Shown: positions 23,621 to 57,600 of the stretch, one piece after another | Layout of the letters: every line of letters starts with the position of its first letter | Position numbering within the stretch: position 1 is the stretch's first letter | From: Flavisolibacter longurius | Lineage (GTDB): Bacteria; Bacteroidota; Bacteroidia; Chitinophagales; Chitinophagaceae | Length of the DNA stretch: 64,000 nucleotides | Direction of reading: 5' to 3' | NCBI GenBank assembly: GCA_013327885.1 | Contig: JABUMY010000009.1 | Location: forward strand, 62,001 to 126,000 | Notes under the pieces: model-generated | What the model saw: the letters and a program-made list of their open reading frames with translations, nothing else | Told to the model about the DNA's origin: nothing | Database searches by the model: none | Position numbers and translations under genes: made by a program

Positions 23621-23881
23621 GGAACGGGAGACGAGAAACGTCAAACGAGAAAAGTTAAACGAAAAACGTAAGACGAGAAACGAGAAACGAGAGACGTGAG
23701 ACGTGAGACGAGAGACATCAGACGAAAGACATTGGGATAAAATAAATCTTTTTAAAAAATAAAAACAGCCACTCTAGAAAGTGGCTGTTTTCTTATAACT
23801 CAAAAATTTCACAAACTTCGCTCAACGTCTTTGTTCCTCGTCTCTCGTTTGACGTTTCTCGTCTCACGTCTCACGTTCCTA
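23621..23881. repeat. Inverted pair of degenerate word repeats (GACGAGAAACG type) around the pyrG terminator
   Basis: The left arm, 23621-23731, is built from variants of GACGAGAAACG, AACGTCAAACG and GACGTGAGACG. The right arm, 23822-23881, is its reverse complement. A 23-nt block at 23628-23650 is exactly complementary to 23843-23865, and a 20-nt block at 23694-23713 to 23857-23876. The terminator hairpin sits between the arms. The right arm ends in the pyrG stop codon. Confidence 0.85.
23762..23793. terminator. Terminator of pyrG (between the repeat arms)
   Basis: AAAACAGCCACT pairs with AGTGGCTGTTTT (12 bp); A and T flanks suit both directions. Confidence 0.8.
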
Positions 23882-25525
23882 GATCATTTCGCTTTGCAGC
23901 AAAGGATTCTTGCTGAACTTTTTTTCATTGTATTTTTTGGCAGCGCCTACAAAATGTACAAAGAGCGGATGCGGCGCTTCAACAGTGCTTTTCAATTCAG
24001 GGTGGTACTGGCAACCGATAAAGAAAGGATGGCTGGCCACTTCCATGATCTCAACCAGCCCGGTTTCAGGGTTGGTTCCCGATGCGGTCATACCACCATC
24101 TTCGTATTGCTGCAGGTACTTGTTGTTAAACTCGTAGCGGTGACGGTGCCGTTCTGTAACATGGGGTTGGCCATAGATCTGCTCTGCCAGTGACCCTTGT
24201 TTTATGTCGCAGGGATACGAGCCCAGTCGCATGGTACCGCCTTTTGCCGTGATCTTTTTTTGCTCTTCCATCATGTCTACCACCGGCTCATCCGCTGCAG
24301 GATCCATCTCCGTGGATTGGGCGTTTTTAATACCCAGCACATTGCGTCCGTATTCAATTACGGCCATCTGCATACCAAGGCAAATTCCAAAGAAGGGTAG
24401 TCCGCTTTCACGGGCATATTGCACGGCCGTGATCTTGCCTTCCACACCACGGTAACCAAATCCCGGTGCTACCAGCAATCCGTCGAGGTTTTGCAGTTTT
24501 TCAGCCACGTTCTCGGCTGTAATAAATTCCGAATGAATGGGCACAACCTGCACTTTACATTCATTTACCGCGCCGGCGTGTACAAATGATTCAAGAATGG
24601 ATTTATAAGCATCCTGCAGTTCTACATATTTTCCAATCAGGCCAATGGTGATGCGGGCCTTGGGGTATTTCAGCTTGTCCAGGAATTCTTTCCAGCGGGA
24701 AAGATCGGGTTCGTGCTTGCTGCTGACCTGCAGCTTTTGCAACACGATCTGGTCAAGTTTTTCATTCATCATCAGCAGGGGCACTTCGTAGATAGTGCTG
24801 GCATCCTGTGCTTCAATGACCGCTTCAGGTTTTACATTACAAAACTGGGCAATCTTGCGTTTGATATCCTGGTTCAACGGTTCTTCGGCGCGGCAAACGA
24901 TCACATCGGGAAAAACCCCGCTTTCGCTCAACTGCTTTACCGAGTGCTGGGTCGGTTTTGTCTTTAATTCCTTGGCCGCTTTGAGGTAGGGGATAAGGGT
25001 AAGATGCACTACTAATAAATCTTCCTCGGGCAGTTCCCACTGCAACTGGCGAACGGCTTCGATATAAGGCAGCGATTCGATGTCGCCAACCGTTCCGCCC
25101 AGTTCCGTGATCACAATATCAAATTCATTTTTCTGTCCGAGGAGCAACATGCGGCGCTTGATCTCGTCGGTAATGTGCGGCACCACTTGTACAGTCTTGC
25201 CAAGAAAAGCGCCTTCCCGCTCTTTGTTGATTACGTACTGGTAAATGCGGCCTGTGGTCACGTTATTGGCCTGCGAGGTAAAGATGTTCAAAAAGCGTTC
25301 GTAGTGACCCAAATCAAGATCAGTTTCGGCGCCGTCTTCGGTCACATAACATTCGCCGTGTTCATAGGGATTGAGTGTTCCGGGGTCGACATTGATGTAA
25401 GGATCAAATTTTTGAATTGTTACCCGCAAGCCTCTTGCCTGTAGGAGTTTGGCAAGCGAAGCTGCAATAATTCCCTTTCCCAAACTCGACGTTACCCCAC
25501 CGGTAACAAATATGTATTTAGCCAT
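23879..25525 (-). CDS. pyrG: CTP synthase
   Basis: Makes CTP from UTP, ATP and glutamine. The 548-aa protein has the N-terminal amidoligase domain (GGVTSSLGKGI P-loop at residues 9-19, KFDPYINVDPGTLNPYEHGE, and the Mg-binding Asp/Glu of ELGGTVGDIE) and the class I glutaminase domain with the oxyanion strand GFGYRG, nucleophile elbow FGICLGMQ, and the His-Glu pair in YHPE. Length and motifs are typical. It is a single-gene unit on the minus strand; its stop codon directly abuts a degenerate repeat arm, and another degenerate repeat lies upstream (25534-25632). Confidence 0.97.
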   Translation of the reverse strand: MAKYIFVTGGVTSSLGKGIIAASLAKLLQARGLRVTIQKFDPYINVDPGTLNPYEHGECYVTEDGAETDLDLGHYERFLNIFTSQANNVTTGRIYQYVINKEREGAFLGKTVQVVPHITDEIKRRMLLLGQKNEFDIVITELGGTVGDIESLPYIEAVRQLQWELPEEDLLVVHLTLIPYLKAAKELKTKPTQHSVKQLSESGVFPDVIVCRAEEPLNQDIKRKIAQFCNVKPEAVIEAQDASTIYEVPLLMMNEKLDQIVLQKLQVSSKHEPDLSRWKEFLDKLKYPKARITIGLIGKYVELQDAYKSILESFVHAGAVNECKVQVVPIHSEFITAENVAEKLQNLDGLLVAPGFGYRGVEGKITAVQYARESGLPFFGICLGMQMAVIEYGRNVLGIKNAQSTEMDPAADEPVVDMMEEQKKITAKGGTMRLGSYPCDIKQGSLAEQIYGQPHVTERHRHRYEFNNKYLQQYEDGGMTASGTNPETGLVEIMEVASHPFFIGCQYHPELKSTVEAPHPLFVHFVGAAKKYNEKKFSKNPLLQSEMI

Positions 25526-25533
25526 AAAGTAAG

Positions 25534-25632
25534 TTTACAGTTTGCTGTTTTCCTGTTTGCAGTTGTTTGCTAAATGTGCAGCGCAGATATGTAAGCTGCA
25601 TTTCACGTTTGACGTTTTACGCTTCACGTAGT
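25534..25632. repeat. Degenerate word repeats upstream of pyrG
   Basis: Two patches: TTTGCTGTTTTCCTGTTTGC-like words at about 25540-25577, and TTTCACGTTTGACGTTTTAC with GCTTCACG at 25601-25628. The second patch uses the same words as the arm at 23822-23881. No inverted partner is found in this gap. Confidence 0.55.
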
Positions 25633-25753
25633 TGACCAGCAGGTGTAAAACATCCGGGAGGTCATGCAAACCTACACCAAAATTTCAGCCGTATAAAAAA
25701 TTGCTTTGTGAAACTGTGGAAAACCGGTAGAAAGAGAAAATTTTTTGTACGCG

Positions 25754-25771
25754 ACAACTTTTTTATAACGC
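25754..25771 (+). promoter_or_regulatory. Motif shared with the sulP upstream region
   Basis: ACAACTTTTTTATAACGC, 28 bp before the fasciclin ATG, matches 13813-13829 apart from one extra T and one substitution. Confidence 0.35.
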
Positions 25772-25799
25772 CGGTGTTGATTACAGAAACTGATCAATT

Positions 25800-26411
25800 A
25801 TGCAACGTAAAAGAATTTTCTCCGGATGGGCATTGGTTTTATCGGTTGTCATGTTTTCCTGTGCCGATTCGGCCACAGACACGGCAGGTAACGCCGATAC
25901 AACCAGTACAATGACCACCACTACCACAGATGCTGCTGGTACAACCGATACGACGGCTGCCAGCCCCGATGCCATGGGTGGCGCAGGTTTATCGCCATCG
26001 AAAAACATCGTTGAAAATGCCATTGCTTCACCGGATCATTCCACCCTGGTAGCAGCCGTGCAGGCAGCCGAGTTGGCCGGTACGCTTAGCGGTGCCGGAC
26101 CCTTTACCGTATTTGCTCCCACCAATGCGGCTTTCGACAAACTGCCGGCCGGTACGGTTGACAACCTGCTGAAGCCGGAAAGCAAGCAGCAACTGACCAA
26201 CGTATTAACGTACCACGTTGTTCCGGGTACGTACAAAGCGGCAGATCTGAAGGATGGACAGAAATTAAAGACGGTTCAGGGAAAAGAGCTGACAGTAATG
26301 ATGAAAGACGGGAAGGTGATGATTGATGGCGCAACCGTTGCCACACCGGATGTTGTATCAAGTAATGGCGTTATTCATGTGATTGATGCGGTGGTTATGC
26401 CCAAAAGTTAA
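25800..26411 (+). CDS. Fasciclin (FAS1) domain lipoprotein
   Basis: 203-aa lipoprotein: signal peptide ending VVMFSC (Cys21), a Thr/Ala/Asp-rich flexible linker (about residues 22-60) and one FAS1 domain (about 67-203) with both conserved blocks, FTVFAPTNAAFDKLP (H1) and YHVVPGTY with the late NGVIHVIDAVVMP (H2). FAS1 proteins are extracytoplasmic adhesion or stress-associated proteins; small bacterial ones are often induced by osmotic stress. Monocistronic, with a shared terminator at the 3' end facing purL. The upstream motif at 25754-25771 recurs before sulP, hinting at co-regulation. Confidence 0.92.
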   Translation: MQRKRIFSGWALVLSVVMFSCADSATDTAGNADTTSTMTTTTTDAAGTTDTTAASPDAMGGAGLSPSKNIVENAIASPDHSTLVAAVQAAELAGTLSGAGPFTVFAPTNAAFDKLPAGTVDNLLKPESKQQLTNVLTYHVVPGTYKAADLKDGQKLKTVQGKELTVMMKDGKVMIDGATVATPDVVSSNGVIHVIDAVVMPKS

Positions 26412-26457
26412 GGACTCGTTTGGTTTTACACCTCTTGGTTCTCTTCCGGGGACAAAC

Positions 26458-26489
26458 AAAAAGAGCAGCCATTGGCTGCTCTTTTCTTA
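26458..26489. terminator. Bidirectional terminator between the fasciclin gene and purL
   Basis: AAGAGCAGCC pairs with GGCTGCTCTT (10 bp, 3-nt loop), with A and T runs outside. Confidence 0.85.
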
Positions 26490-26504
26490 TTCGGTAAACA
26501 GAAA

Positions 26505-28748
26505 TCAGATCATGCTTAGCGCACCTTCTGAATCCAGTTCTTTCGACAGGTGGTTTTCAATGGCTGTGTCGTAACGTTCTTTCCACTGATCAACGCTTCC
26601 CCAATCTTCGCCGTCAACAGATACAGCGCCGGCGGTTACTTTTCCAAGTGAAACAAAAGGCATTTCCTGCTGCTCCATCGCTTTCCAAAAAAGGTCACGC
26701 TGTTTTTCCGAAACCGTTACCACTACGCGGCTTTGGGCTTCGCCAAACCAAAATGCATCATTGCGGGTAGCGGCATCTGCGTTGCTAACGGCAAAGCCTA
26801 ACCGTTGTGGGAAGGCACTTTCCAGCAGGGCAGTTACCAGCCCGCCTTCACTTACATCGTGAGCACTCAGGATCAATTCATCGGCAATCAGTGTGCGGAT
26901 GATCTGTTGCAGGCTGTATTCCTGCTCCAGGTCAAAATAAGGCGCTGGTGATTGGGTTACGCCACAAACTTTGCTCAGGTATTGCGAGGAAGCAATGTCG
27001 TTTTTCACGGCACCAATGAGGAAGATCTCATCGCCTTCCGCTTTAAAGTCGAGGGTCATTTTTTTGGCGAGGTCTTCTACCAGCCCAACCATACCGATTG
27101 TTGGTGTTGGAAACACAGGGCCATCCGGGTTTTGGTTGTAAAAGCTTACGTTGCCACCCGTTACCGGTGTATCAAATTTGCGGCAGGCTTCGCCCATACC
27201 TTTCACGGCATTTACAAATTGATAATACACTTCCGGATCGTAGGGGTTGCCAAAATTCAGGCAGTTGGTAACACCCAGCGGAACGCCGCCGCTGCAAACA
27301 ATGTTGCGGGCTGCTTCGGCTACGGCTATCATCGCACCTTTGTACGGATCGGCATATACAAAACGGCTGTTGCAATCTACCGTTACGGCAATGCCTCTCC
27401 CGGTTTCTTTAACCAGCACTATGGCAGCATCGGAAGGTGCATTGGTGGTTGTATTTACGGTCCCTACCATGCTGTCGTATTGGTGGTAGATCCAACGCTT
27501 GTTGGCAATGGTTGGTACCTGTATCAGTTGCTCGGCAATTTGTTTAAGGTTGGTGGGTTGCGGAACCGAAGCAATGTCAAAATTTTGCAGCGAAGCAAAA
27601 TAGGAAGGCTCGCGGAATTCTCTTTCGTATTGCGGTGCGCCGCCGCCAAGTACCAGTTCTTCAGCGGGAATTTCAGCTTCCAACTGTCCGTGCATGTGAA
27701 AGCTAAGCAGGCCGTCATTTTTTACATGACCAATCACAGCGTTCTCCAGGTCCCACTTGTCAAACACTTTTTTTACTTCTTCTTCGCGGCCTTTTGCTAC
27801 CACCAGCAGCATTCTTTCCTGGCTTTCGCTTAGGAGCAGTTCCCAGGCTTTCATGTTTTGCTGGCGCATGGGTACTTTATCCAGGTCAATGTGCATGCCC
27901 ACGCCACCTTTTGCGCTCATTTCGGCGGTAGAGCAAATAATGCCCGCCGCACCCATGTCCTGCATGCCTACAACTGCGCCGGTCTCAATTACTTCAAGGC
28001 AGGCTTCCAGTAATTTTTTCTCCTGGAAAGGATCGCCTACCTGTACGGCCGGCAATTCTTCCGTGCTTTCTGCCGTTATCTCGGCTGAGGCAAAGGAGGC
28101 GCCGCCAATACCATCTTTACCCGTAGCACTGCCCACGTACATAACAGGATTGCCTTCGCCTTCGGCGGTAGCCGAAACGGTCTTACCCACTTTTACAATT
28201 CCTACGCTCATGGCATTCACAAGTGGGTTGGTATGGTAGCATTCGTCAAAATAAACTTCGCCGCCAACCGTAGGTACGCCAAAGCAGTTGCCGTAGTGCG
28301 AAATGCCGTGAACAACACCTGCCAGCAGGTGCTGTGTTTTTTTATCGTCAAGCTTGCCAAAGCGAAGCGAGTTGAGTGCCGCAATGGGACGTGCACCCAT
28401 GGTGAAAATATCGCGGTGAATGCCACCCACACCCGTAGCTGCTCCCTGGAAGGGTTCAATGGCCGAAGGGTGGTTGTGCGATTCGATCTTGAACACCACG
28501 CCATAACCCTCGCCAATATCCATCAGGCCCGCGTTTTCTTCACCGGCCGCAATGAGCATGCGGCCGCCTTCGCGGGGAAGTGTTTTGAGCCATTTAATGG
28601 AATTCTTATAACTGCAATGCTCACTCCACATACCGGAGAAAGCGCAGAGTTCATTGAAATTGGGTGTGCGGCCGAGTTTCTGTTTGATCAGTTCAAACTC
28701 TTCTTCTGTGAGGCGAAGCTGTTTTGCGGTTTTTACTGTGACTTCCAT
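26505..28748 (-). CDS. purL: Phosphoribosylformylglycinamidine synthase subunit II (small PurL)
   Basis: Converts FGAR to FGAM in purine synthesis. At 747 aa it is the short (Bacillus-type) PurL, which needs separate PurQ glutaminase and PurS subunits; neither is in the window. It shows the N-terminal LTEEEFELIKQKLGR, the FSGMWSEHCSYK signature, FKIESHNHPSAIEPFQGAATGVGGI with the catalytic region, HDVSEGGL in the C-terminal half, and the duplicated PurM-like domains. It is transcribed alone from a TAGCTTTG box just upstream of the ATG. A degenerate repeat arm begins a few bases beyond that promoter. Confidence 0.96.
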   Translation of the reverse strand: MEVTVKTAKQLRLTEEEFELIKQKLGRTPNFNELCAFSGMWSEHCSYKNSIKWLKTLPREGGRMLIAAGEENAGLMDIGEGYGVVFKIESHNHPSAIEPFQGAATGVGGIHRDIFTMGARPIAALNSLRFGKLDDKKTQHLLAGVVHGISHYGNCFGVPTVGGEVYFDECYHTNPLVNAMSVGIVKVGKTVSATAEGEGNPVMYVGSATGKDGIGGASFASAEITAESTEELPAVQVGDPFQEKKLLEACLEVIETGAVVGMQDMGAAGIICSTAEMSAKGGVGMHIDLDKVPMRQQNMKAWELLLSESQERMLLVVAKGREEEVKKVFDKWDLENAVIGHVKNDGLLSFHMHGQLEAEIPAEELVLGGGAPQYEREFREPSYFASLQNFDIASVPQPTNLKQIAEQLIQVPTIANKRWIYHQYDSMVGTVNTTTNAPSDAAIVLVKETGRGIAVTVDCNSRFVYADPYKGAMIAVAEAARNIVCSGGVPLGVTNCLNFGNPYDPEVYYQFVNAVKGMGEACRKFDTPVTGGNVSFYNQNPDGPVFPTPTIGMVGLVEDLAKKMTLDFKAEGDEIFLIGAVKNDIASSQYLSKVCGVTQSPAPYFDLEQEYSLQQIIRTLIADELILSAHDVSEGGLVTALLESAFPQRLGFAVSNADAATRNDAFWFGEAQSRVVVTVSEKQRDLFWKAMEQQEMPFVSLGKVTAGAVSVDGEDWGSVDQWKERYDTAIENHLSKELDSEGALSMI

Positions 28749-28764
28749 ACGCGGTAGAAAGGCG

Positions 28765-28772
28765 CAAAGCTA
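28765..28772 (-). promoter_or_regulatory. purL promoter -7 element
   Basis: The minus strand reads TAGCTTTG (TAnnTTTG), 16 bp upstream of the purL ATG. The leader is very short. The repeat arm (28776-28808) occupies the region where the -33 box would be. Confidence 0.5.
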
Positions 28773-28775
28773 AGT

Positions 28776-28915
28776 GAGTTTGGGGTTTGGTGTTGGGTGT
28801 TTGGGGTTATTCTTCTGCTTATCTTACTTTTTTACAATGGCAGGCTGCTGAAAAAAGCAGTAAAGGCAAGCGTAAATGCAACAACCCCCAACCCCAAACG
28901 CCAAACTCCAAACCC
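28776..28915. repeat. Inverted pair of degenerate word repeats (GTTTGGGGTT type)
   Basis: The left arm, 28776-28808, is made of TTTGGGG/TTTGGTG/TTGGGTG variants. The right arm, 28882-28915, is the complement (CAACCCC, CAAACG, CAAACTCC words). The best 20-nt alignment between the arms is 17/20, with an exact GTTTGGGGTT. The arms fill the divergent space between purL and the membrane-protein gene. Confidence 0.8.
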
Positions 28916-28922
28916 TTTTCCC

Positions 28923-28929
28923 TATTTTG
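28923..28929 (+). promoter_or_regulatory. Possible promoter of the 424-aa membrane protein
   Basis: TATTTTG, one base shorter than TAnnTTTG, in a CCTATTTTGTGCC context like other promoters in the window. It places transcription start near 28937. Confidence 0.35.
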
Positions 28930-28948
28930 TGCCGCTAAAACATCCGAC

Positions 28949-30223
28949 TTGGAGCACCTGGCTTTTGCTGCTTACCTTATCTTTTTTGCCTGGCTGGTTA
29001 CCCGAACATGTTTTTTTCTTTCATCAGGATTGACCAAAGCACAACTGGTGATTCTTTTTTTGCTGAAGGTGATGGCCGGCATTCTTTATGGCTGGGTCGG
29101 GGTATATTACGGCGAACTGGCGCAGATGTCAGACACCTGGGCTTACCACTACGAAAGCCTCACAGAATACAAAGTTCTGCTTACTGATCCGGGTCAGTTT
29201 TTCAGCAGCCTGTTTCACAGCTCTTACGAAGAAGGCTACGGTAAATTTTTGGCCGTGGAAAACTCCTGGTGGAATGACCTGAAAGGAAATTTTTTTATCA
29301 AGATCTTGGCCCTGTTCAACCTTGCCTCCTTTGGCAATTATTATGTCAATGTCATTTTTTATTCATTTATATCCCTGTTTGGCCCAATTGGGCTGTACCG
29401 GGTGATGAAGGCCCATTTTCCAGGTAACCGGCTTGCCATCATCCTGGCTACGTTTTTGGTTCCGTCTTTCCTGTTCTGGACGTCGGGTCTGCACAAAGAC
29501 GGTCTTATTTTTCTTGGTATGGTGATGATGATCTATCCCCTGTACTTTATCCTGAAGGGAGCCCGGCCGACTTTTCTTTCCGTGTTTGCCATGCTGGTTG
29601 GTTTTCTGCTGGTCTTGGGGTTGCGCAATTTTATGATCATTCCGCTGCTGCCGGCCTTGCTGGCCTGGGTACTTTCCGTCAAACTGCGCTGGCAGCCATG
29701 GCAGGTTTTTGCCGGGCTATATGCCATTTGTATCGTCCTGTTTTTTACTGGGAAATACATTCACCCGCTACTCAATTTCCCCGAAGAAGTGGTGGTGCGG
29801 CAACAGGCCTTTCAAAATCTTGGGGGAGGATCGGCCGTTGAAGTGGAGAAGCTGCAACCAAACGTCGCCAGCTTTTTGGCCAACCTGCCCGATGCCATCA
29901 CCCTTAGTGCAATCCGGCCGTATCCAACCGATGTCCGGCACCTGTTGTCCCTGGCAGCAGCGGTCGAAATAAATTTTTTGCTCCTTATCGTTTTGCTTTG
30001 CACTTTCTATCGAAAAAAAGGAGGTCAGGTAAAACCCTTTATCCTGTTCTGCATCTTTTTTGGATTTTCTGTTCTTCTAATGATAGGCTATACGGTCAAC
30101 ATCCTGGGTGCCATCGTACGCTACCGCAGCCTGGTCATTACCTTGCTGTTTATACCGATGGTGGCACAAGCCAACTGGAGCCGGATCGGGCAGATCTTCA
30201 ACGGAAATATGGAAGAAAAATAA
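28949..30223 (+). CDS. Polytopic membrane protein (about 424 aa), unknown function
   Basis: Roughly ten hydrophobic helices separated by short loops; an early extracytoplasmic loop carries aromatic and acidic residues (SDTWAYHYES, SSYEEGYGKF, ENSWWNDLKG). The layout resembles EpsG/Wzy-like or glycosyltransferase-39-like membrane proteins involved in glycan assembly, but no diagnostic motif is seen, so that is only a guess. The frame is open from 28787, but that part crosses a repeat arm and precedes the likely promoter; a TTG at 28949 (MEHLAFAAYLIFFAW) is the earliest start consistent with it. No ATG is available near the first helix, so the start is uncertain. Confidence 0.65.
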   Translation: MEHLAFAAYLIFFAWLVTRTCFFLSSGLTKAQLVILFLLKVMAGILYGWVGVYYGELAQMSDTWAYHYESLTEYKVLLTDPGQFFSSLFHSSYEEGYGKFLAVENSWWNDLKGNFFIKILALFNLASFGNYYVNVIFYSFISLFGPIGLYRVMKAHFPGNRLAIILATFLVPSFLFWTSGLHKDGLIFLGMVMMIYPLYFILKGARPTFLSVFAMLVGFLLVLGLRNFMIIPLLPALLAWVLSVKLRWQPWQVFAGLYAICIVLFFTGKYIHPLLNFPEEVVVRQQAFQNLGGGSAVEVEKLQPNVASFLANLPDAITLSAIRPYPTDVRHLLSLAAAVEINFLLLIVLLCTFYRKKGGQVKPFILFCIFFGFSVLLMIGYTVNILGAIVRYRSLVITLLFIPMVAQANWSRIGQIFNGNMEEK

Positions 30224-30367
30224 ATGTATTAAAATTTCGAATTCTTGCTTTTAAAAGGGCTGGTCGTTTGTTTTAACGCAGTTTATTTTTACCGTTTAAT
30301 AAATCGTTGACAAATTTTGGTGGTTATTTTTTGAAATTTAGCGTTCTTTGGCAAAAATCACAATTCT

Positions 30368-32557: not shown

Positions 32558-32577
32558 GCAATAGCAATAATTTTTTA

Positions 32578-32607
32578 AAGCCTGTACTTTTTGGTGCAGG
32601 CTTTTTT
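32578..32607 (+). terminator. Terminator of the glutamine synthetase gene
   Basis: AAAGCCTGTAC pairs with GTGCAGGCTTT (one G-U) and is followed by TTTTA. Confidence 0.75.
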
Positions 32608-32683
32608 TATGGAAAACCTTTTAAATGGGTTTGCTGATGGCGTTGTAACCAATATCTCAATCAAAATAATATGATCTTCTTCC

Positions 32684-33676: not shown

Positions 33677-33688
33677 CCGGCAATGCTA

Positions 33689-35215: not shown

Positions 35216-35358
35216 AGACGCAAAATCGTTTGATAACTAAAATTAGGCGATGTTTTGTTATGAAGACGGTAAGAAAAAAGCTTTGGCTGCATCGGTTTTT
35301 CACAACTGGCAGCCCGAAATGTTATTTTTTCGTTTATAACTGCAAGCTATTTTCCGTA

Positions 35359-35366: not shown

Positions 35367-35393
35367 TCAACTGCCGGTTTAAAAAGGCACATT

Positions 35394-41009: not shown

Positions 41010-41128
41010 AGCAGTCAGCAGTTTAAAGCCGATAGTTCATAGCCAGTTTCGCAACGTTCTAACATAACAGTCCGTTAACGAAGCCGGCTTTGAACTGTTA
41101 ACGTTGCACTTTGAACTGTCCGCAGCCT
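41010..41128. repeat. Degenerate inverted word repeats between sprE and the PBP gene
   Basis: CAGTTTAAAGCCG at 41019-41031 has a near-exact inverted partner (CGGCTTTGAACTG at 41084-41096). Further variants (CTTTGAACTGT, GTTAACG, GCAACGTT) fill the space. The left arm begins at the sprE stop codon. Confidence 0.65.
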
Positions 41129-44793: not shown

Positions 44794-46215
44794 ATGTCGG
44801 CTACAAATGGCTATAGCTTCTTTGGCGCGGTTGAAAAGAGTTTCGACAAAGCAGCAAAATTCACCAAATGGGATCCGGGTATCCTCGAACAGATCAAAGC
44901 TTGCAATTCAATTTATTCCATGCGGTTCCCCGTTCGGATGGACGACGGACGTATCGAGGTGATCGAAGCCTACCGTGTACAGCACTCGCATCATAAAACG
45001 CCTTGTAAAGGCGGGATCCGCTTTGCCGCAGAAGTTAACCAGGACGAAGTGATGGCCCTGGCCTCGCTGATGACCTATAAATGCGCCATTGTAAACGTGC
45101 CGTTTGGTGGCGGTAAGGGTGGTATCAAAATCAGCCCGAAAAAATATTCGGTTTACGAACTGGAAAAGATCACCCGCCGCTATACAGCCGAGCTGGTAAA
45201 GAAAAACTTTATCGGTCCCGGTACCGATGTGCCGGCGCCTGACTACGGAACCGGCGAACGCGAAATGGCCTGGATCGTGGATACCTACATGGGTCTGCGT
45301 CCCGGCGAAATCGATGCGCTGGGTTGCGTAACCGGTAAGCCTGTAACACAAGGTGGGGTTCGCGGCCGCCGCGAAGCAACCGGTCTTGGTATTTTTTATG
45401 GTGTACGCGAAGTGTGCAACATGCCCGAGATCATGGAAAGGGTAGGGCTGACCGTAGGCATTGAAGGCAAACGTGTGATTGTACAGGGACTGGGTAACGT
45501 GGGTTACCATGCTGCCAAGTTCTTCCAGCAGGCTGGTGCTAAGATCATTGCCCTGGCAGAATACGAAGGTGCCATTCGCAACGACGATGGCCTGGACGTG
45601 GATGCTGTGTTTGAGCACCGCAAAACCACCGGCTCGATCTTGAATTTTGCCGGCGCACAAAACTTTGCCAAGAATACCGATGCACTGGAATATGATTGCG
45701 ATATTCTGATCCCGGCAGCACTGGAAAATGTGATCAACGGGCAGAACGCTCCCCGTGTAAAAGCAAAGCTGATTGGTGAAGGCGCCAACGGTCCGCTGAC
45801 ACCGGAAGCCGATGAAGTGTTTGTTCAAAAAGGAACCATCGTTATCCCGGACATGTACCTGAACGCCGGAGGTGTGACGGTTTCGTACTTCGAGTGGCTG
45901 AAGAACCTGAGCCACGTTCGTTACGGCCGGATGGAAAAGCGCTTTACCGAGAACATGAACCAGCACATCATCAGCCAGATCGAAGAGCTGACCGAAAAGC
46001 AGGTTAGCGACCGCGAACGCCAGTTTATCGTTCACGGACCCGAAGAAGTGGACCTGGTGCACAGCGGTCTGGAAGAAACAATGATCACCGCTACAAGAGA
46101 GATCATTGAAGAGTGGAAGCGCAACCCCCAGATCCCCGATATGCGTACGGCTGCCTACGTTGTTGCCATCAACAAAGTAGGTACTTCGTATGCCGAACTG
46201 GGCATCTTCCCGTAG
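44794..46215 (+). CDS. gdhA: Glutamate dehydrogenase (Glu/Leu/Phe/Val dehydrogenase family)
   Basis: Interconverts glutamate with 2-oxoglutarate and ammonia. The 473-aa protein shows KTPCKGGIRF with the substrate lysine region, MTYKCAIVNVPFGGGKGGI, VPAPDYGTGEREMAWI, the coenzyme-domain entry VIVQGLGNVGYH and LIPAALENVIN. The sequence KPVTQGGVRGRREATGLG belongs to the hexameric clade common in this phylum. It is 19 bp after the ccmD-like gene and so probably co-transcribed with the heme genes, an arrangement commonly seen in Bacteroidota. The stop codon TAG is also the first word of a degenerate repeat arm. Confidence 0.94.
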   Translation: MSATNGYSFFGAVEKSFDKAAKFTKWDPGILEQIKACNSIYSMRFPVRMDDGRIEVIEAYRVQHSHHKTPCKGGIRFAAEVNQDEVMALASLMTYKCAIVNVPFGGGKGGIKISPKKYSVYELEKITRRYTAELVKKNFIGPGTDVPAPDYGTGEREMAWIVDTYMGLRPGEIDALGCVTGKPVTQGGVRGRREATGLGIFYGVREVCNMPEIMERVGLTVGIEGKRVIVQGLGNVGYHAAKFFQQAGAKIIALAEYEGAIRNDDGLDVDAVFEHRKTTGSILNFAGAQNFAKNTDALEYDCDILIPAALENVINGQNAPRVKAKLIGEGANGPLTPEADEVFVQKGTIVIPDMYLNAGGVTVSYFEWLKNLSHVRYGRMEKRFTENMNQHIISQIEELTEKQVSDRERQFIVHGPEEVDLVHSGLEETMITATREIIEEWKRNPQIPDMRTAAYVVAINKVGTSYAELGIFP

Positions 46216-46358
46216 TGAGTGGTGAGTTGTGAATGGTGAGTACACCTCTATAGCTCATCTTATCCTACAATAAAAAAACCTCCTGAATGCTCAGGAGGTT
46301 TTTTATTGAAGGAAATTAATGGATAAGGCAAACTCACCACTGACCACTCACCATCAGC
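46213..46358. repeat. Inverted pair of degenerate word repeats (AGTGGTGAGTT type) around the gdhA terminator
   Basis: The left arm, 46213-46242, consists of GTGAGTGGTGAGTTGTGAAT and GGTGAGTA words. The right arm, 46331-46358, is its complement; AGTGGTGAGTT is exact between them. The left arm starts in the gdhA stop and the right arm ends in the stop of the facing 107-aa gene. Confidence 0.8.
46272..46305. terminator. Bidirectional terminator between the repeat arms
   Basis: AAAAAACCTCCTGA pairs with TCAGGAGGTTTTTT (14 bp, 4-nt loop). Confidence 0.9.
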
Positions 46359-47315: not shown

Positions 47316-47320
47316 GAAAT

Positions 47321-47376
47321 AACTAGCAATAAAAAAGGCAGGCTGTAAACACAGCCTGCCTTTTTTATTGCTAGTT
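47321..47376. terminator. Exceptionally long perfect hairpin terminator
   Basis: A 26-bp perfect stem (47321-47346 with 47351-47376) with an AAAC loop. The core GGCAGGCTGT/ACAGCCTGCC is flanked by A-run and T-run and then by an extra AACTAGCAAT/ATTGCTAGTT extension not needed for termination. Confidence 0.85.
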
Positions 47377-47484
47377 GATATTGGGATAGTGTGATATTGA
47401 GATATTAGTCGAAAGGCATGTTTTTGGAAATTATTAGCACTGCAAACAATATCCGAATATCTCAATATCCCACTATCAAATCTC
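47377..47484. repeat. Inverted pair of degenerate word repeats (GATATTGAGATATT type)
   Basis: The left arm, 47377-47406, is built from GATATTGGGATAGTGTGATA-like words. The right arm, about 47449-47484, is its complement. The 22 nt at 47385-47406 match the complement of 47456-47477 at 21/22. The left arm begins right after the terminator hairpin and the right arm stops at the M14 peptidase stop codon (TAG, 47487-47485). Confidence 0.85.
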
Positions 47485-50064: not shown

Positions 50065-50298
50065 GTGCGTTGGTTAAAAGCTGAAAAATAAAGAAAGATG
50101 ATGAGTTGCGTGAAAAATGAGGGGGCATAAACGCAGTGTTTCCACGTCATTCTAAGCTGGTAAAAAATGGATCGTTTGTAAAGGTGATAGTGCTTTGAGC
50201 GAAAAGGTAATAGTAATGCTAACCCTGCCATTTTATTTGGTAATGTGATGAGGATTCTGCGTACAGCAGATATCCTCCGGCTAACCGGCATTCTTTCC

Positions 50299-50306
50299 TA
50301 CATTTG
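50299..50306 (+). promoter_or_regulatory. mdh promoter -7 element
   Basis: TACATTTG (TAnnTTTG) in the TTCCTACATTTGC context also seen before sulP; 41 bp upstream of the mdh ATG. Confidence 0.55.
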
Positions 50307-50347
50307 CTGCGCAAAATATTTTCTTACACATAAATTATTTTCAGAAG

Positions 50348-51277
50348 ATGAAAGTTACCGTTGTAGGCGCTGGTGCCGTTGGTGCAACCACAGCCGATAA
50401 TATTGCCCGCAAAGAGCTGTGTGAAGAATTGGTGCTGTTGGATATCAAAGAAGGACTGGCCGAAGGAAAGGCCATTGACATGATGCAGACCGCAGCGCTG
50501 CTCAACTTCGATACACGAATTGTTGGCAGCACAAGCGACTACGCTAAAACAGCCGGATCGGATGTGGTGGTGATCACCTCTGGTTTGCCCCGCAAGCCCG
50601 GTATGACCCGCGAAGAGCTGATTGGCACTAATGCCAACATTGTAAAAGGTGTAACGCAAAATATTTTGGAGCATTCTCCCAACGCTATCATCATTGTGGT
50701 GAGCAACCCAATGGATACCATGACCTACCTGACCATGACCACATCCGGCGTGGACAAGAACAAGATCATTGGTATGGGCGGCATTTTGGACAGCTCCCGC
50801 TTTAAGTTTTACCTGAGCCAGGCGCTGAACTGTTCACCTGCTGATCTGAATGCCATTGTCATTGGCGGACACGGCGATACCACCATGATCCCGTTGATCC
50901 GCTATGCTACCTGGAACTCGGTACCGGTAACAGAATTCTTGAGCGAAGAGCAGCAGCAAAAAGTAGTGGCCGATACCATGGTAGGTGGCGCTACGCTGAC
51001 AAAACTGATTGGCACGTCGGCCTGGTATGCACCGGGTGCTGCTACCGCTGCGTTGGTAGAAAGTATTGTTCGTGATGAAAAGAAATTGTTCTCCTGCTGC
51101 GTATCGCTTTCGGGTGAATACGGCCAGAATGATATTTGCCTGGGCGTTCCCGTTACCATTGGCAAAAACGGTTGGGAAAAGATCGTTGATTACAAGCTGA
51201 ACGAAGCCGAGCAAGGCCTGTTCAACAAATCGGCCGATGCGGTGCGGAATATGAATGATGTGTTGAAGACGTTGTAA
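50348..51277 (+). CDS. mdh: Malate dehydrogenase (LDH-like type)
   Basis: NAD-dependent oxidation of malate to oxaloacetate in the TCA cycle. The 309-aa protein has the dinucleotide motif GAGAVG (7-12), Asp32 at the end of strand two (NAD rather than NADP), the active-site loop LPRKPGMTR with Arg82 (a malate- rather than lactate-type residue environment), VSNPMD and the catalytic His175 in IGGHGD. Length and motifs fit the tetrameric LDH-like MDH of Chlorobi/Bacteroidota. Single-gene unit. Confidence 0.95.
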   Translation: MKVTVVGAGAVGATTADNIARKELCEELVLLDIKEGLAEGKAIDMMQTAALLNFDTRIVGSTSDYAKTAGSDVVVITSGLPRKPGMTREELIGTNANIVKGVTQNILEHSPNAIIIVVSNPMDTMTYLTMTTSGVDKNKIIGMGGILDSSRFKFYLSQALNCSPADLNAIVIGGHGDTTMIPLIRYATWNSVPVTEFLSEEQQQKVVADTMVGGATLTKLIGTSAWYAPGAATAALVESIVRDEKKLFSCCVSLSGEYGQNDICLGVPVTIGKNGWEKIVDYKLNEAEQGLFNKSADAVRNMNDVLKTL

Positions 51278-51298
51278 ACAGCAGCAACTTACAAATAC

Positions 51299-51327
51299 AA
51301 AAGGCGGTCCCGAGGATCGCCTTTTTT
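51299..51327 (+). terminator. Terminator between mdh and the S8 peptidase gene
   Basis: AAAAGGCG-TCC pairs with GGA-CGCCTTTT across CGA and ends in a T-run. Confidence 0.8.
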
Positions 51328-51330
51328 GTT

Positions 51331-53919: not shown

Positions 53920-54063
53920 AGTTGGTAGGAAGTTACGGCTTATCTGATTAGTACGGTATGAAGAAGGGATATAAAGGGCCAAAAAAATAATTTATTTGAA
54001 TTGAAGGTGATATGTTAAAGAATTGTAAATTAGATTGGTATTCAATTTACTTATCACTGAAAA

Positions 54064-54897
54064 ATGTTTAAACACATGAGAAACATCCTTAAACCATTGG
54101 CCCTGGCCGGCCTTGTGGCATTTATCTTCAGCGCATGTAAAAAAGAGGCAAAAGAAATTCCGCAGCAGGAAGAAATTTCTGCCGAGGCGCTGTCACAGAT
54201 CAAGGGCCTCGGTTTTAGCACGCAAAATGTAAAAAAGGTAGACGAAGGTTATTTGGTAGAAGGTGACATCGTCTTAACTGATGAATTGCTGAATTCTACA
54301 CCGGAGCAATCACTGTTGCGTATTGCCGGTAATGAACAGTACCGGACCACCAATCTCGTCACCAAGTTGCCCCGAACCATTACGGTTTTAGTGTCCGGTT
54401 TAGGTAGCGCTTTTGTACAGGGCACCGATCTGGCAATTGGCCGGTACAATGCACTGGGTCTGCGAATAAAATTTCAAAGAATTACTTCTGGCAGGGCGAA
54501 CATTACCATTCAGGGATTTAACCAGGCGCCTTCAGGCGGTTACATTACACTGGGTAGCGCTGGCTTTCCATCCCGGAAAGGCGATCCGTACACAACCATT
54601 AAAATGAACACCAACCAATATGCGTATGGTTCTAATCCTAATGTAAGCTATGTAGGTTCTGTCATTCAGCATGAATTGGGCCATTGCATAGGCTTCCGTC
54701 ACACCGATTATATGGACAGAAGCTTTAGCTGCAATGGTGCTTATGCCAATGAAGGTGCCAGCAATATTGGCGCTATTCATATCCCCGGCACACCCACACG
54801 TGCAGACGCAAATTCATGGATGCTTGCCTGTTCCAGTGGCGGCGACCAGACCTTTAATAGCAATGATAAAATTGCATTGAACTATTTGTATAAATAA
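54064..54897 (+). CDS. M57-type zinc metalloprotease lipoprotein
   Basis: 277-aa lipoprotein: signal peptide with lipobox FSAC (Cys25), a pro-region, then a zinc metalloprotease domain with HELGHCIGFRHTD (His203, Glu204, His207, His213), the expanded HExxHxxGxxH zincin motif of the M57 ('HEIGH') group. Upstream are TVLVSGLGSAFVQGTDLAI and the strand-rich ITIQGFN..GGYITLGSAGFPS. Attached to the outer membrane or periplasmic side, it probably degrades extracellular proteins. It is transcribed divergently from the S8 peptidase. The second ATG at 54076 is an alternative start. Confidence 0.85.
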   Translation: MFKHMRNILKPLALAGLVAFIFSACKKEAKEIPQQEEISAEALSQIKGLGFSTQNVKKVDEGYLVEGDIVLTDELLNSTPEQSLLRIAGNEQYRTTNLVTKLPRTITVLVSGLGSAFVQGTDLAIGRYNALGLRIKFQRITSGRANITIQGFNQAPSGGYITLGSAGFPSRKGDPYTTIKMNTNQYAYGSNPNVSYVGSVIQHELGHCIGFRHTDYMDRSFSCNGAYANEGASNIGAIHIPGTPTRADANSWMLACSSGGDQTFNSNDKIALNYLYK

Positions 54898-54929
54898 GCA
54901 AAGATTCTGTTGTCATTCAACATGTCTCA

Positions 54930-54967
54930 AAAGTCAAAAGCCGCAATCTTGCGGCTTTTGACTTTTG
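54930..54967. terminator. Bidirectional terminator between convergent genes
   Basis: AAAAGTCAAAAGCCGCAA pairs with its complement (18-bp perfect stem, 2-nt loop). Confidence 0.88.
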
Positions 54968-54988
54968 TACCCAGATAAACAGAATATT

Positions 54989-55942
54989 TTATAAATTAAA
55001 AATCTTAAAACACTGCCGCTTCAGCTTCCCTGTAAAATCAAATGGTGTGGTGGCTTTTGTAATGTCTTTTACAGAAGCAGAATTAATGCCATTGACATCC
55101 AGCTCAAATTTGGAATAGTTGGTACTAAAGTAAAGCACACCACCCGGTGATAAGGCTTTTATACAATCATTGATCAGCACCACATGATCACGCTGAATAT
55201 CTAGCACATCCTCCATCCGCTTGCTGTTGCTGAAAGTTGGCGGGTCCATCACAACCAGGTCGAAAGAATGGGGTGGAAGGGTCTTGAGGTATTGCAGCAC
55301 GTCGGCATGTACAGCCTTGTGATTTGTTGCACCGGGAAAATTTTGTTGCATGTTCTTTTCCGCCCAGGCCAGGTAGGTTTTGGACAGGTCCACCGAAACA
55401 ACCTCTGTGGCGCCACCCGCCGCGGCATACACCGAAAATGAACCCGTATAACAAAACAGGTTGAGAACCCGTTTCCCGGCCGATTCTTCACGAACCATTT
55501 GCCGGGTGGTGCGGTGATCGAGAAAAAGGCCCGTGTCGAGGTAGTCGCTCAGGTTGACAATAAAGTTCAAACCCCCTTCCTGCACAACAAATTCATGTTT
55601 TTCGGCCGCAAGTTTTTGGTACTGGCTTTCGCGGTGGTCGTTGCGCTGCCGGAGCTTGGTAAAGACTAGGTCCGGGTTGATCCCCGTTACGCTGCTCACT
55701 ACCTCGATGCAGCCTTGCAGCCATTGGTCGTGTTCTTCATCTGAAAAGCCATGGCGGCGCTTGTATTCCGAAACATAAAGCCGGCCTTCGTAATTCTCAA
55801 GGATCAGGGGAAATTCGGGCAGGTCGTGGTCGTAAAACCGGAAACAGCTAATGCCCTGCCGCCTCGCTTTTTTGCCAATGTGCTTGTATACCTTCTCCAG
55901 CCGGTTGCGGAACATTAAAAATTTGTCAAAGGATTGCTTCAT
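54989..55942 (-). CDS. rlmK: 23S rRNA methyltransferase RlmK-like (stand-alone)
   Basis: 317-aa class I SAM-dependent methyltransferase closely resembling the C-terminal half (RlmK, m7G2069 of 23S rRNA) of the fused E. coli RlmKL. Aligned segments are DLPEFPLILENYEGRLYVSEY, TKLRQRNDHRESQYQKL, NLSDYLDTGLFLDHR, NLFCYTGSFSVYAAAGGA (SAM motif I), VDLSKTYLAWAEKN, DPPTFSNSKRMEDV (motif IV) and LDIQRDHVVLI. The RlmL half with its THUMP domain is absent, so this is a split or stand-alone K domain. Monocistronic on the minus strand, divergent from the exonuclease-GIY-YIG gene across a repeat pair. Confidence 0.85.
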   Translation of the reverse strand: MKQSFDKFLMFRNRLEKVYKHIGKKARRQGISCFRFYDHDLPEFPLILENYEGRLYVSEYKRRHGFSDEEHDQWLQGCIEVVSSVTGINPDLVFTKLRQRNDHRESQYQKLAAEKHEFVVQEGGLNFIVNLSDYLDTGLFLDHRTTRQMVREESAGKRVLNLFCYTGSFSVYAAAGGATEVVSVDLSKTYLAWAEKNMQQNFPGATNHKAVHADVLQYLKTLPPHSFDLVVMDPPTFSNSKRMEDVLDIQRDHVVLINDCIKALSPGGVLYFSTNYSKFELDVNGINSASVKDITKATTPFDFTGKLKRQCFKIFNL

Positions 55943-55977
55943 TGCTAAAAATATTAGAACTTCGACGACCTATTAAA

Positions 55978-56068
55978 AGTTTGCAAGTTTACGGGTTCAC
56001 AGGTTCGCAAGTTAGTGTGGATTGTTTCTTACCGCGTAAACGAGTGAACGCGTAAACTCGTGAACTGT
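55978..56068. repeat. Inverted pair of degenerate word repeats (GTTTACGCGTTCAC type)
   Basis: The left arm, 55978-56014, has AGTTTACGGGTTCACAGGTT-type words. The right arm, 56032-56068, has the complement (GTGAACGCGTAAACT). AGTTTACG and GTTCAC are shared exactly with one base between them. The arms fill the space between two divergent genes, and the right arm ends 5 bp before the next ATG. Confidence 0.8.
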
Positions 56069-56073
56069 TCCGG

Positions 56074-57441
56074 ATGTATGCAATTGTAGATATTGAGACG
56101 ACAGGTGGTTATGCTTCTGCAAACGGTATTATTGAAATTTCCATCCAGGTTTTTGATGGCGAAACGGTAATTGAAACGTTTGAGTCCCTGGTCAATCCCG
56201 GCCAGGTCATTCCCCGCTACATCCAGGCCTTTACCGGCATTACCAACGAAATGGTGGTAGATGCCCCCCGCTTCGAAGACATTGCCGAAAAAGTGTTTAC
56301 CATCCTGCAGGGCAATATTTTCGTGGCACACAATGTCAACTTTGATTATTCTTTTGTCAAAAGCAACCTCGATTTTTTCGGCTATACCTTTAATGCCAAA
56401 AAGCTTTGTACAGTAAGGCTGTCGCGACAGATCTTCCCGGGTTTTCCGTCGTACAGCCTGGGCAATCTTTGCCATTCGCTTGGCATTCCCATCGAAAACA
56501 GGCACCGTGCCGGTGGCGATGCTTTGGCAACCGTCACTTTGTTTAAAAAGCTCCTGGAGAACGATGCGAATGGTGCCATCCTGGCCAGCCTGAACCGCTC
56601 GTCGAAAGAAGCTATTTTGCCACCCAATGTTCCCAAGGCGCAGTTTGAGGCCCTGCCCAACACCCCTGGCGTTTATTATTTCCACGACCAAAAGGGAAAG
56701 GTTATTTACGTGGGCAAGGCAAAGAACATCCGCCAGCGGGTGAACTCGCATTTCAGCAACAATTCCGATGGCCGGCAAAAGCAAAATTTTGTGCGGCATA
56801 TGTATGGCATCACGTTTCAGCAAACCGCAACGGAACTAATGGCCGCCATCCTGGAAAGCACGGAAATAAAACGCCTGTGGCCGCAGTTTAACGTGGCGCA
56901 AAAAAAGCCGGAAGAACTTTTCGGCATTTTTGTGTACGAAGACCAGAACGGCTACATGCGTCTGGCCATTGAAAAAAAGCGAAAGAACTCAACCCCCATT
57001 TATACGTTTCACTACAAGGTAGATGGTCATGGCGTGCTGCGCAAGCTGATGAAAGAATTTTCACTTTGTCCCAAGCTGTGCTTTATGCAAACCAGTACGG
57101 ACGAATGCGTTGGCATTGCGGAAGCGCATTGCAACGGTGCCTGCGAGAAAAAAGAACCGCCGGCTGCTTACAACGACAGGGTGTTGCAGGCAATTTCTTC
57201 ACTCACAGCAAGGCCTTCCTACATTGTGCTGGACAAAGGCTTAACCGACGATGAAGTTTCTTGCATTATGGTGGTGCAAGGTGCGTTCTTTGGCATGGGA
57301 TACCTGCCCAAAAATTTTGAAACCATCTCCCAAAAATCCATTGCCGAATACATAACGCCGTATAAAGACAACAGTACGATCCGCATGCTGCTGCGCTCCT
57401 TTGCAACGTCCAACCCGGAACAGATAAAGATGATAGAGTAG
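56074..57441 (+). CDS. DEDDh exonuclease fused to a UvrC-type GIY-YIG nuclease domain
   Basis: 455-aa fusion. The N-terminal half (about residues 1-170) is a DnaQ/epsilon-like 3'-5' exonuclease: VDIETTG (Asp6, Glu8), AHNVNFDYSF, and HRAGGDA for the DEDDh histidine. The second half begins with a GIY-YIG module (LPNTPGVYYFHDQKGKVIYVGKAKNIRQRV, about residues 190-280) as found at the N-terminus of UvrC and in Cho; a Cys-containing segment follows (CPKLCFMQTSTDECVGIAEAHC). The UvrC C-terminal RNase H and HhH regions are missing. It probably repairs DNA independently of, or parallel to, UvrABC. The same domain order is known in other phyla. Confidence 0.88.
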   Translation: MYAIVDIETTGGYASANGIIEISIQVFDGETVIETFESLVNPGQVIPRYIQAFTGITNEMVVDAPRFEDIAEKVFTILQGNIFVAHNVNFDYSFVKSNLDFFGYTFNAKKLCTVRLSRQIFPGFPSYSLGNLCHSLGIPIENRHRAGGDALATVTLFKKLLENDANGAILASLNRSSKEAILPPNVPKAQFEALPNTPGVYYFHDQKGKVIYVGKAKNIRQRVNSHFSNNSDGRQKQNFVRHMYGITFQQTATELMAAILESTEIKRLWPQFNVAQKKPEELFGIFVYEDQNGYMRLAIEKKRKNSTPIYTFHYKVDGHGVLRKLMKEFSLCPKLCFMQTSTDECVGIAEAHCNGACEKKEPPAAYNDRVLQAISSLTARPSYIVLDKGLTDDEVSCIMVVQGAFFGMGYLPKNFETISQKSIAEYITPYKDNSTIRMLLRSFATSNPEQIKMIE

Positions 57442-57513
57442 GAGCCCCCACCTAACCTCCCCCAACGGGTGAGGAATAGCCAACGCACAGACCTCGCTTT
57501 TGCACGATACGTT

Positions 57514-57549
57514 TTTAGCCTATGCCGGTTTTTGGTGGAGGCTTTTTTT
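57514..57549 (+). terminator. Weak terminator after the exonuclease gene
   Basis: AGCCT-GCC pairs with GGT-AGGCT (imperfect) and is followed by TTTTTTT. Confidence 0.55.
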
Positions 57550-57561
57550 ACGTCAATAAAA

Positions 57562-57600
57562 TTTTCAATAATCAACTCTCAATGTTCAATTCTCAAATAA
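57562..57600. repeat. Single arm of degenerate word repeats (TCAATTCTCAA type)
   Basis: Words TTTTCAATAATCAACTCTCA, ATGTTCAATTCTCAAAT. No inverted partner is recognised in this gap. Confidence 0.5.

Follow-up and report, generated by a model that had tools for sequence, protein, structure and literature searches.

Inverted pairs of degenerate 7- and 8-nt word arrays in the gene spacers of Flavisolibacter

Here we describe a real class of intergenic DNA, paired arrays of short-period words that stand between genes, which we encountered in a 64,000-nt stretch of the Flavisolibacter longurius genome (contig JABUMY010000009.1, positions 62,001 to 126,000; G000:C52:62001-126000 in our numbering, hereafter the window). 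The arrays are dispersed over many spacers, the facing arms of a spacer share a word family more often than expected by chance, the G-richer strand points inward, arms make contact with gene edges, words are exchanged at conserved sites and a core within the word is conserved. Flavisolibacter is a member of the Chitinophagaceae and the host is a soil-type bacterium; the source genome (G000) comprises 5.75 Mb in 52 contigs, and its genus group numbers 18 genomes, among them F. nicotianae (G006), Cnuella takakiae (G016) and a further species (G010). An initial annotation of the window had proposed an intergenic class with matched inverted arms, and the census, the shuffles and the pairing of arm families described below bear this out.

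To take a census, we ran a simple autocorrelation detector (periods 5-12) over 1.03 Mb of G000 (C52 whole, C11 1-400 kb and C44 1-384 kb), with gene and spacer limits set by a home-made open reading frame caller and no annotation used. This unearthed 188 short-period arrays, 158 of which lie in gene spacers, where periods of 7 (115/158) and 8 (33/158) together account for 148/158; mononucleotide shuffles of these three pieces yielded 0, 2 and 0 arrays. Arrays occupy 110 of the 686 spacers in the sample. With tandem 7-nt units at many, mainly intergenic loci, they qualify as dispersed heptanucleotide repeats of the kind termed short tandemly repeated repetitive sequences (STRR) or heptameric simple sequence repeats. 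Among the 148 period 7/8 arrays, 83 have an end no more than 10 nt away from a gene edge, compared to 45.3 expected and a maximum of 61 among 500 random placements. The density of period 7/8 arrays per 100 kb is 15.3 in G000, 11.8 in G010 and 26.7 in C. takakiae; F. nicotianae gave 2 arrays in one 80 kb sample and 17 spacer arrays in another of 140 kb, and single 9-20 kb samples of G004, G007 and G011 contained no period 7/8 arrays. In the wider family we sampled the surroundings of one gene at 80 loci, and 39 of these carry arrays: 8/13 within the genus group and 31/67 beyond it.

Classification of 200 arrays of G000 and G010 gave eight main families of at least 7 members, each present in 7-32 spacers and in both species: GTGAGTG (43 arrays), an 8-nt GATATTGN/GTTGATNG group (32), ACGWSAR (27), GCAATNN (23), GTTTGGN (22), GTTTACN/GTTCAAA (16), GTTCACNN (15) and GAGCTNN (7). 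A larger set of 279 arrays resolved into 10 families with at least 6 members. The initial annotation had taken the words to be locus-specific and had named the recurrence of the same words at many unrelated loci as the observation that would count against it; such recurrence is what the shared families reveal, and a 1-kb query around the first paired locus of the window found 68 matches in its own genome, a count that includes the self match; the others fall inside the array locus of the query. The words of different loci are indeed unrelated inside the window, but this is not true genome-wide.

Facing arms are matched by family, as 40 of the 67 two-array spacers of G000 and G010 carry the same family in both arms, versus 9.2 expected and a chance maximum of 20 in 2000 re-pairings. 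At the level of units, same-family arms of one spacer (likeness 31.9, n = 40) are no closer than those of different spacers (34.0, n = 128; one-sided p = 0.91), and ongoing local copying is therefore not supported; nor is there support for a correction of the arms of one locus towards each other, as quasipalindrome template switching would have it. Pairs can also be mixed, matching in both species at C52:49256 and window 25526-25850, and arms can be composite: at C52:41490 and C44:110886 the outer part is GTGAGTG and the inner part TAGCGAG.

The arms obey a strand polarity. In 94 stems drawn from the 213 array-bearing spacers of G000 and G010, the 5' arm has more G than C in 84, fewer in 6 and equal numbers in 4, and the stem base pairs, 5' arm first, are 693 GC, 171 CG, 637 TA and 583 AT. 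An inward-pointing G-richer strand is found at both stop and start edges, irrespective of gene direction: word orientation in paired arms, compared between stop and start edges, was consistent in 276 cases and inconsistent in 6, and orientation over all arrays sorts 631 to 100 by spacer side and 104 to 618 by gene sense. The least consistent family is GCAATNN, in which 12/22 arrays are flipped relative to the hub. At the wider-family loci 21/25 stems agree with this polarity (2 against, 2 ties), including 13 outside the genus (1 against, 2 ties), and non-periodic stems of array-free spacers have none (36 to 32, 18 ties). As array-free spacers also have more G than C at start-codon edges, which is a caveat for the base counts, base skew alone is weak evidence at starts; the word orientation is independent of this GC-skew background. 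We considered wobble-driven template switching as the source of the polarity and discarded it, since it predicts more TA than AT pairs and the counts are 637 to 583 in G000 and G010 and 187 to 219 at the family loci.

Most families combine a fixed core with one or two free positions that are common to the loci of the family. Within arrays of GTTCACNN, for example, variation is 0.00-0.07 in core columns, 0.26 in the C/T column and 0.33-0.37 in free columns, while GTGAGTG columns vary more evenly (0.04-0.28). We compared 34 aligned orthologous arrays of G000 and G010 that reached minimum values of 85% for alignment and 70% for identity, and found a divergence of 0.112 (55/493) in the core, 0.193 in middle and 0.301 (71/236) in free positions, with 0.232 at other aligned positions of array-bearing spacers; the core thus diverges about one third as fast as the free positions. 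The 16 gap-free arrays gave 0.087 for the core versus 0.267 for free positions, and a neutral simulation passed through the same filter gave equal rates for both. Unit turnover inside a family could mimic the contrast between core and free positions. Similar cores occur at 7- and 8-nt spacing (GTTTACN and GTTCACNN; GATATTN and GATATTGN).

In the window, the arrays and the features that adjoin them are:

23624..23730, plus strand: left arm of locus 1, ACGWSAR array of period 7, about 15 units
23828..23876, minus strand: right arm of locus 1, ending 2 nt short of the CTP synthase stop
23879-25525, minus strand: CTP synthase gene
25534..25570, plus strand: left arm of a mixed pair, GTTTACA/GTTTGCN words
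25601..25628, minus strand: right arm of the mixed pair, ACGTGAA words on the reverse strand
28748: start of an AIR-synthase-like PurL gene, adjoining locus 2
28778..28811, plus strand: left arm of locus 2, GTTTGGN, period 7, between divergent genes
28880..28913, minus strand: right arm of locus 2 (both arms GTTCACNN at the F. nicotianae site)
41034..41051, plus strand: left arm of locus 3, weak
41079..41096, minus strand: right arm of locus 3, weak
44794-46215: Glu/Leu/Phe/Val dehydrogenase gene
46212..46241, plus strand: left arm of locus 4, GTGAGTG, overlapping the dehydrogenase stop codon
46269..46307, no strand: terminator-like hairpin between the arms of locus 4, with a similar hairpin at the G010 site
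46332..46353, minus strand: right arm of locus 4, reaching the stop codon of a minus-strand gene (46354)
47377..47406, plus strand: left arm of locus 5, GATATTGN, period 8 (period 7 in G010)
47447..47477, minus strand: right arm of locus 5
55977..56013, plus strand: left arm of locus 6, GTTYRCNN, period 8 (G010 word of period 7)
56033..56066, minus strand: right arm of locus 6, 7 nt ahead of the RNase_T exonuclease gene start
56074-57441: RNase_T exonuclease gene
57560..57596, no strand: short single array AATTCTC, weak

Scored against dinucleotide-preserving shuffles (200 at locus 1, 400 at the others), the inverted arms at 23621-23881 were matched by 0/200 and those at 28776-28915, 46213-46358, 47377-47484 and 55978-56068 by 0/400 at each, and the array score at these five loci was reached by 0 or 1 shuffles. 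The period is 7 at 23621-23881, 28776-28915 and 46213-46358, and 8 at 47377-47484 and 55978-56068. Five of the six pairs initially proposed are therefore clear, but the sixth, 41010-41128, is weak (stem 1/400, periodicity 66/400, DNA fold z only -1.9); downstream of its right arm lies what we take to be a TAnnTTTG-like promoter motif. Two further loci had been described as single arms. One of them, 25534-25632, passes for periodicity (2/400 shuffles) but not for a stem (187/400), as expected because its arms are unlike: it is a mixed pair of a GTTTACA-family left arm and an ACGTGAA-family right arm, the same in G010. The other, 57562-57600, is a weak short array (30/400); the matching spacer of G010 bears a GTGAGTG pair. 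That arms run up to stop codons is correct for 46213-46358, at its two ends, and to within 2 nt for the arm ending at 23876, in keeping with the general edge trend. Two other inverted repeats were found in the window: a perfect 26-bp repeat with a 4-nt loop at 47321-47376, terminator-like, immediately preceding the locus 5 pair and with a similar hairpin at the G010 site, and a perfect 25-nt repeat at 3802-3826/3970-3994 with 143 nt between its copies.

Orthologous sites indicate how arrays and words turn over. Among 229 orthologous spacers of G000 and G010, arrays were present in both species at 34, in G000 only at 22 and in G010 only at 4, making presence one-sided in 26/60 array-bearing spacers; the 49 orthologous spacers of G000 and F. 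nicotianae had arrays in both at 11, in G000 only at 7 and in F. nicotianae only at 6. A search for orthologs in G010:C21 returned next to nothing, as this region is not syntenic. Where both arms could be called in both species (26 comparisons, 21 with G010 and 5 with F. nicotianae, four sites being in both sets), 15 were unchanged, 8 had changed in one arm (several of these being composite arms with a flipped label), 3 had changed in both arms to one word and none in both arms to different words. The expectation from the initial annotation that both arms change together thus holds in 3/26 comparisons and fails in the 8/26 with one changed arm, and the purely local process that it inferred is not upheld by this excess of one-arm changes or by the arm likenesses of 31.9 and 34.0. 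When likeness within spacers was set against likeness across species, 13/18 cases favoured concerted change (9 to 4 with G010, p = 0.27; 4 to 1 with F. nicotianae, p = 0.38); neither comparison is significant by sign test, and the test is biased, since the cases were picked for good stems. In the G010 comparisons the median likeness of arms within a spacer is 30.0 versus 28.5 for left and right arms across species.

Several sites exemplify the exchange. At three of them both arms bear a single new word between flanks that have been kept, as the initial annotation had proposed: the spacer at 28749-29029 has GTTTGGN in G000 and G010 and GTTCACNN in F. nicotianae, G000:C11:26209 has switched between GCAATNN and GTTCACNN, and 55943-56073 has period 8 in G000 and period 7 in G010. 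At C52:177952 a perfect (GTTTGGC)13 in G000 corresponds to (GAGTCAG)18 in G010, with similar flanks after it, and at the G000:C11:39260 site both arms carry TAGCTNN, GAGCYNN or CAGCYNN across three species. A tRNA-Trp gene (L054:9550-9621; G000 C52:215550-215621) is also flanked by inverted word pairs, of which the right one is GTTTACC-like in G000 and GTTCGGT-like in G010.

The interiors of the pairs were compared after masking the arrays. Centres share sequence in 18/108 spacers (17%), versus 51/411 (12%) array-free spacers (p = 0.27). Transposition of whole cassettes is therefore unsupported as a rule, and the common interior of a miniature inverted-repeat transposable element (MITE) was found in a few exceptions only. 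One exception is an AGTTCAC-core-ACGTGAG cassette at three spacers, 76-81% identical over 108-136 nt, in which G000 C11:33132, C11:378615 and C52:49256 have centre and arms in common (GTTCAC array, short core, ACGTGAG array); a similar terminator with GTGAGTG arms recurs at several spacers.

We also noted a dispersed intergenic element that resembles repetitive extragenic palindromes (REP) and contains a GGCTCCGTAGGAGCC palindrome. Its 10 copies in G000, followed by two Y1 transposase matches near the palindrome in other genomes, are:

L265, C52:178050
L270, C11:21349
L272, C5:112204
L274, C22:65920
L276, C9:17006
L278, C48:175028
L280, C21:121
L282, C11:599844
L284, C33:185651
L286, C7:74507
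G011:C692:6445-6786, Y1 transposase match
G015:C11:3363-3707, Y1 transposase match

A perfect, evidently young heptad array lies upstream of 7/10 copies, with 6 different words (GTTTGGC, GTTTGTA, GGTTCGA, GATGGTC, GTTTGAC and, twice, GTTTGGA), and the remaining 3/10 have 6-mer or degenerate arrays. The palindrome copies G011:C692:6168-6238 and G015:C11:3851-3917 lie within about 300 bases of the Y1 transposase matches, which suggests a relation to REP and their associated tyrosine transposases (RAYT). A further dispersed intergenic repeat, containing GTGCGACGCAAC, occurs in array-free G000 spacers (C52:21950-22285, C11:195607-195834). Neither of two candidate enzymes tracks the arrays among the 18 genus genomes, leaving both unsupported as a required gene: Y1_Tnp is present in 14/18 and missing from the complete G002, which bears arrays, and RVT_1 is above cut-off in 5/18 and missing from the array-rich C. 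takakiae and G008.

Our preferred reading, tentative and given somewhat less than an even chance, is that the arrays are genome-wide, self-propagating non-coding DNA composed of degenerate 7/8-nt words. Slipped-strand replication would give birth to arrays and lengthen them, and a DNA end in one array could be extended on another of similar register, by template switching or other ectopic copying, which would move arrays between spacers as well as between the arms of one spacer. Selection would remove arrays only where a gene, terminator or promoter is harmed, so that spacers would be filled to those limits. Copying would require an intact core, keeping cores and leaving the remaining one or two positions free, and the facing arm would be the favoured template, such that pairs arise; mixed and composite arms might then be intermediate states of word exchange. 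In its favour we count the spread of word families over many spacers in two species, the family sharing of facing arms (40/67), the exchanges at orthologous sites, the slower divergence of core columns, the perfect arrays beside the REP-like element, the masked centres, which are not shared above control, and the lack of a searched gene that tracks the trait. Slippage, template switching and core-dependent copying are the steps that we infer here.

Several observations weigh against self-propagation by these steps. It leaves the inward G-rich polarity unexplained, and a polarity of G/C with scarcely any of T/A (637 vs 583) fits the wobble scheme of PMC8794818 poorly. Free positions vary within arrays beyond what simple slippage should allow, preferential copying of the facing arm is invisible at the unit level (31.9 vs 34.0), and unit order is common between loci only weakly, most of all in the GTGAGTG family (34.3 vs 30.3 shuffled). 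Growth at the inner end was dropped as an idea, the halves being alike in purity (inner half purer in 99 and outer in 92 of 252 arrays, the rest tied). SbcD and ExoI act against hairpins or template switching; in favour of self-propagation, none of the 18 genus genomes has SbcD above cut-off (weak sub-cut-off matches in 11) or the ExoI C-terminal domain, so two such nucleases seem to be missing. However, SbcD is above threshold in just 29/139 class genomes and absent at threshold from 110/139, so its absence is not specific, which weakens loss of SbcCD as a special cause. A bolder and unlikely view is that an array-writing activity, not passive slippage, lays polar short-period words with a fixed core and one or two free positions at gene edges and at a set point beside the REP-like element, a new word per event, amounting to a written, exchangeable code; the code would serve as boundary marks for a factor that reads them or be the traces of a 3'-end-extending enzyme.

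Because the core is conserved, the main rival to self-propagation is a role as binding-site clusters, possible though doubtful, in which a nucleic-acid-binding factor would read the core at 7-8 nt spacing, the convergent pair would mark or insulate the spacer, and selection would keep the core and allow replacement by equivalent words. Slow core divergence (0.112 vs 0.301 at free positions and 0.232 in other spacer DNA, with equal rates under neutral simulation), similar cores at both spacings, contact with gene edges and an orientation that follows spacer side and not gene sense are all consistent with it, but a set of some ten unlike words would call for more than one factor, or for a single very lax one; array-free spacers are the majority (110/686 with an array), presence often differs between species (26/60 one-sided), and same-family replacement of aligned units would give an equal contrast between core and free positions. 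The process that the initial annotation envisaged, local hairpin-templated copying plus slippage whereby arms keep correcting each other while the word drifts, strikes us as improbable. It would account for the three switches of both arms to one word with none to different words, the words held by both arms at the G000:C11:39260 site in each of three species, the 88/94 stems (score-selected) in which same-spacer arms beat unit-shuffled arms, the folding of single strands as hairpins, and the excess of G-C over C-G pairs, whose direction is the one that PMC8794818 predicts for intrastrand switching. Yet same-spacer arms are no closer than same-family arms elsewhere, 8/26 comparisons changed in one arm, and the likeness of arms within a spacer (30.0) is about that of left and right arms across species (28.5).

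Transposase-moved MITE-like elements or REP/BIME-like elements (bacterial interspersed mosaic elements), whose terminal inverted repeats would be periodic by chance, could explain the fixed polarity and the few common centres, i.e. the AGTTCAC-core-ACGTGAG cassette and the terminator with GTGAGTG arms; they are quite improbable given that centres are generally not shared above control, sites persist while words change and Y1 transposase is missing from some array-bearing genomes. Selection for RNA hairpins, as terminators or 3' stabilisers, is very unlikely. When five loci were folded as DNA, four gave z values between -3.8 and -8.2 (-8.2 including an inner terminator-like hairpin), which speaks for it, but sense-strand mismatches in tandem spacers comprise 50 G-U and 55 A-C, with no excess of wobble changes, indicating that RNA pairing is not what keeps the arrays, and we rejected RNA-structure selection on this ground; some pairs stand in spacers of divergent genes (28749-29029, 55943-56073), and one tRNA was the only Rfam match in the window. 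The least likely of these explanations is a telomerase-like reverse transcription adding RNA-templated short repeats to 3' ends at spacer breaks. A period of 6-8, a fixed core with free positions and a G-richer strand running 3' inward on both sides resemble telomeres, and such a mechanism would explain the polarity, but without an enzyme: a search for RVT_1 alone found it above cut-off in 5/18 genus genomes and not in every array-bearing one, being missing from the array-rich C. takakiae and G008.

Cyanobacterial STRR are dispersed heptanucleotide arrays, and on this general description the Flavisolibacter arrays are like them. In a cyanobacterial replicon of 300 kb, Trichormus plasmid A, our detector picked up 25 arrays with periods of 6-9, of which 15 have period 7 and some look genic. 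Calothrix heptanucleotides are mentioned in PMC4692102, which describes the Xanthomonas GGGAATC repeats as dispersed heptamers with variable positions (GGGANTN), intergenic in 89% and 93%, forming convergent pairs in 70 and 75 cases and lying on average 28 nt from the 5' neighbouring open reading frame and 160 nt from the downstream one. From these orientations and distances we infer a likeness to Flavisolibacter in inward G-rich polarity and edge contact, and the Flavisolibacter pairs, which are inverted and convergent and have their G-rich strands directed inward, are of the Xanthomonas type. In contrast, Xanthomonas has one word whereas Flavisolibacter has about ten families, two periods (7 and 8), arms that can be mixed or composite, and an exchange of words at orthologous sites; the Xanthomonas repeats are discussed as possible G-quadruplexes, while few Flavisolibacter words have the needed G-runs (PMC4692102). 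The P6b stem of the Nostoc tRNA-Leu(UAA) intron is also built from degenerate heptanucleotides with free positions (Class I TDNGATT, Class II NNTGAGT, the latter resembling the GTGAGTG family), one of the two words being used per site and the region being repeatedly replaced by the other word, like the exchange described here; P6b is, however, one RNA locus under splicing constraint, whereas the Flavisolibacter arrays are many intergenic sites that bear no sign of RNA pairing (PMC4476775).

The TAACTGA repeats of Beggiatoaceae, some Cyanobacteria and Bacteroidetes are intergenic heptamers too, and in some Bacteroidetes they form part of larger groups that contain other heptamers; they differ in being one exact word, with 169 direct sets and one indirect in the main genome, the majority just upstream of starts (PMC4679880). 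The one or few words per genome of the Xanthomonas and Beggiatoaceae reports contrast with the 8-10 families found here. Quasipalindrome template-switch mutation is known to create and repair inverted arms; the passages of PMC8794818 and PMC7202029 that we consulted describe no word families or periodicity, and the local arm matching that it leads one to expect is not visible here. The statement in the initial annotation that no named family behaves in this way was thus too strong, the Xanthomonas and Nostoc heptanucleotide repeats being alike in several respects, and among the open-licence papers listed by our searches none dealt with inverted heptad pairs of several words and set polarity in Chitinophagaceae. 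The rules that are new here are the inward G-rich polarity, the slowly diverging fixed core and the lack of a G-U excess. Heptanucleotide repeats are known from cyanobacteria, xanthomonads, Beggiatoaceae and a few Bacteroidetes, and the papers that we consulted offer no agreed explanation of their origin. Repeat DNA of this kind looks rule-bound, by rules that are mostly undescribed, and the convergent polarity reported for Xanthomonas is a hint that distant phyla may share one process. Since several families, two spacings, polarity, core conservation and site-faithful exchange can all be measured within one genus of 18 genomes, the origin of bacterial 7-nt repeats becomes testable.

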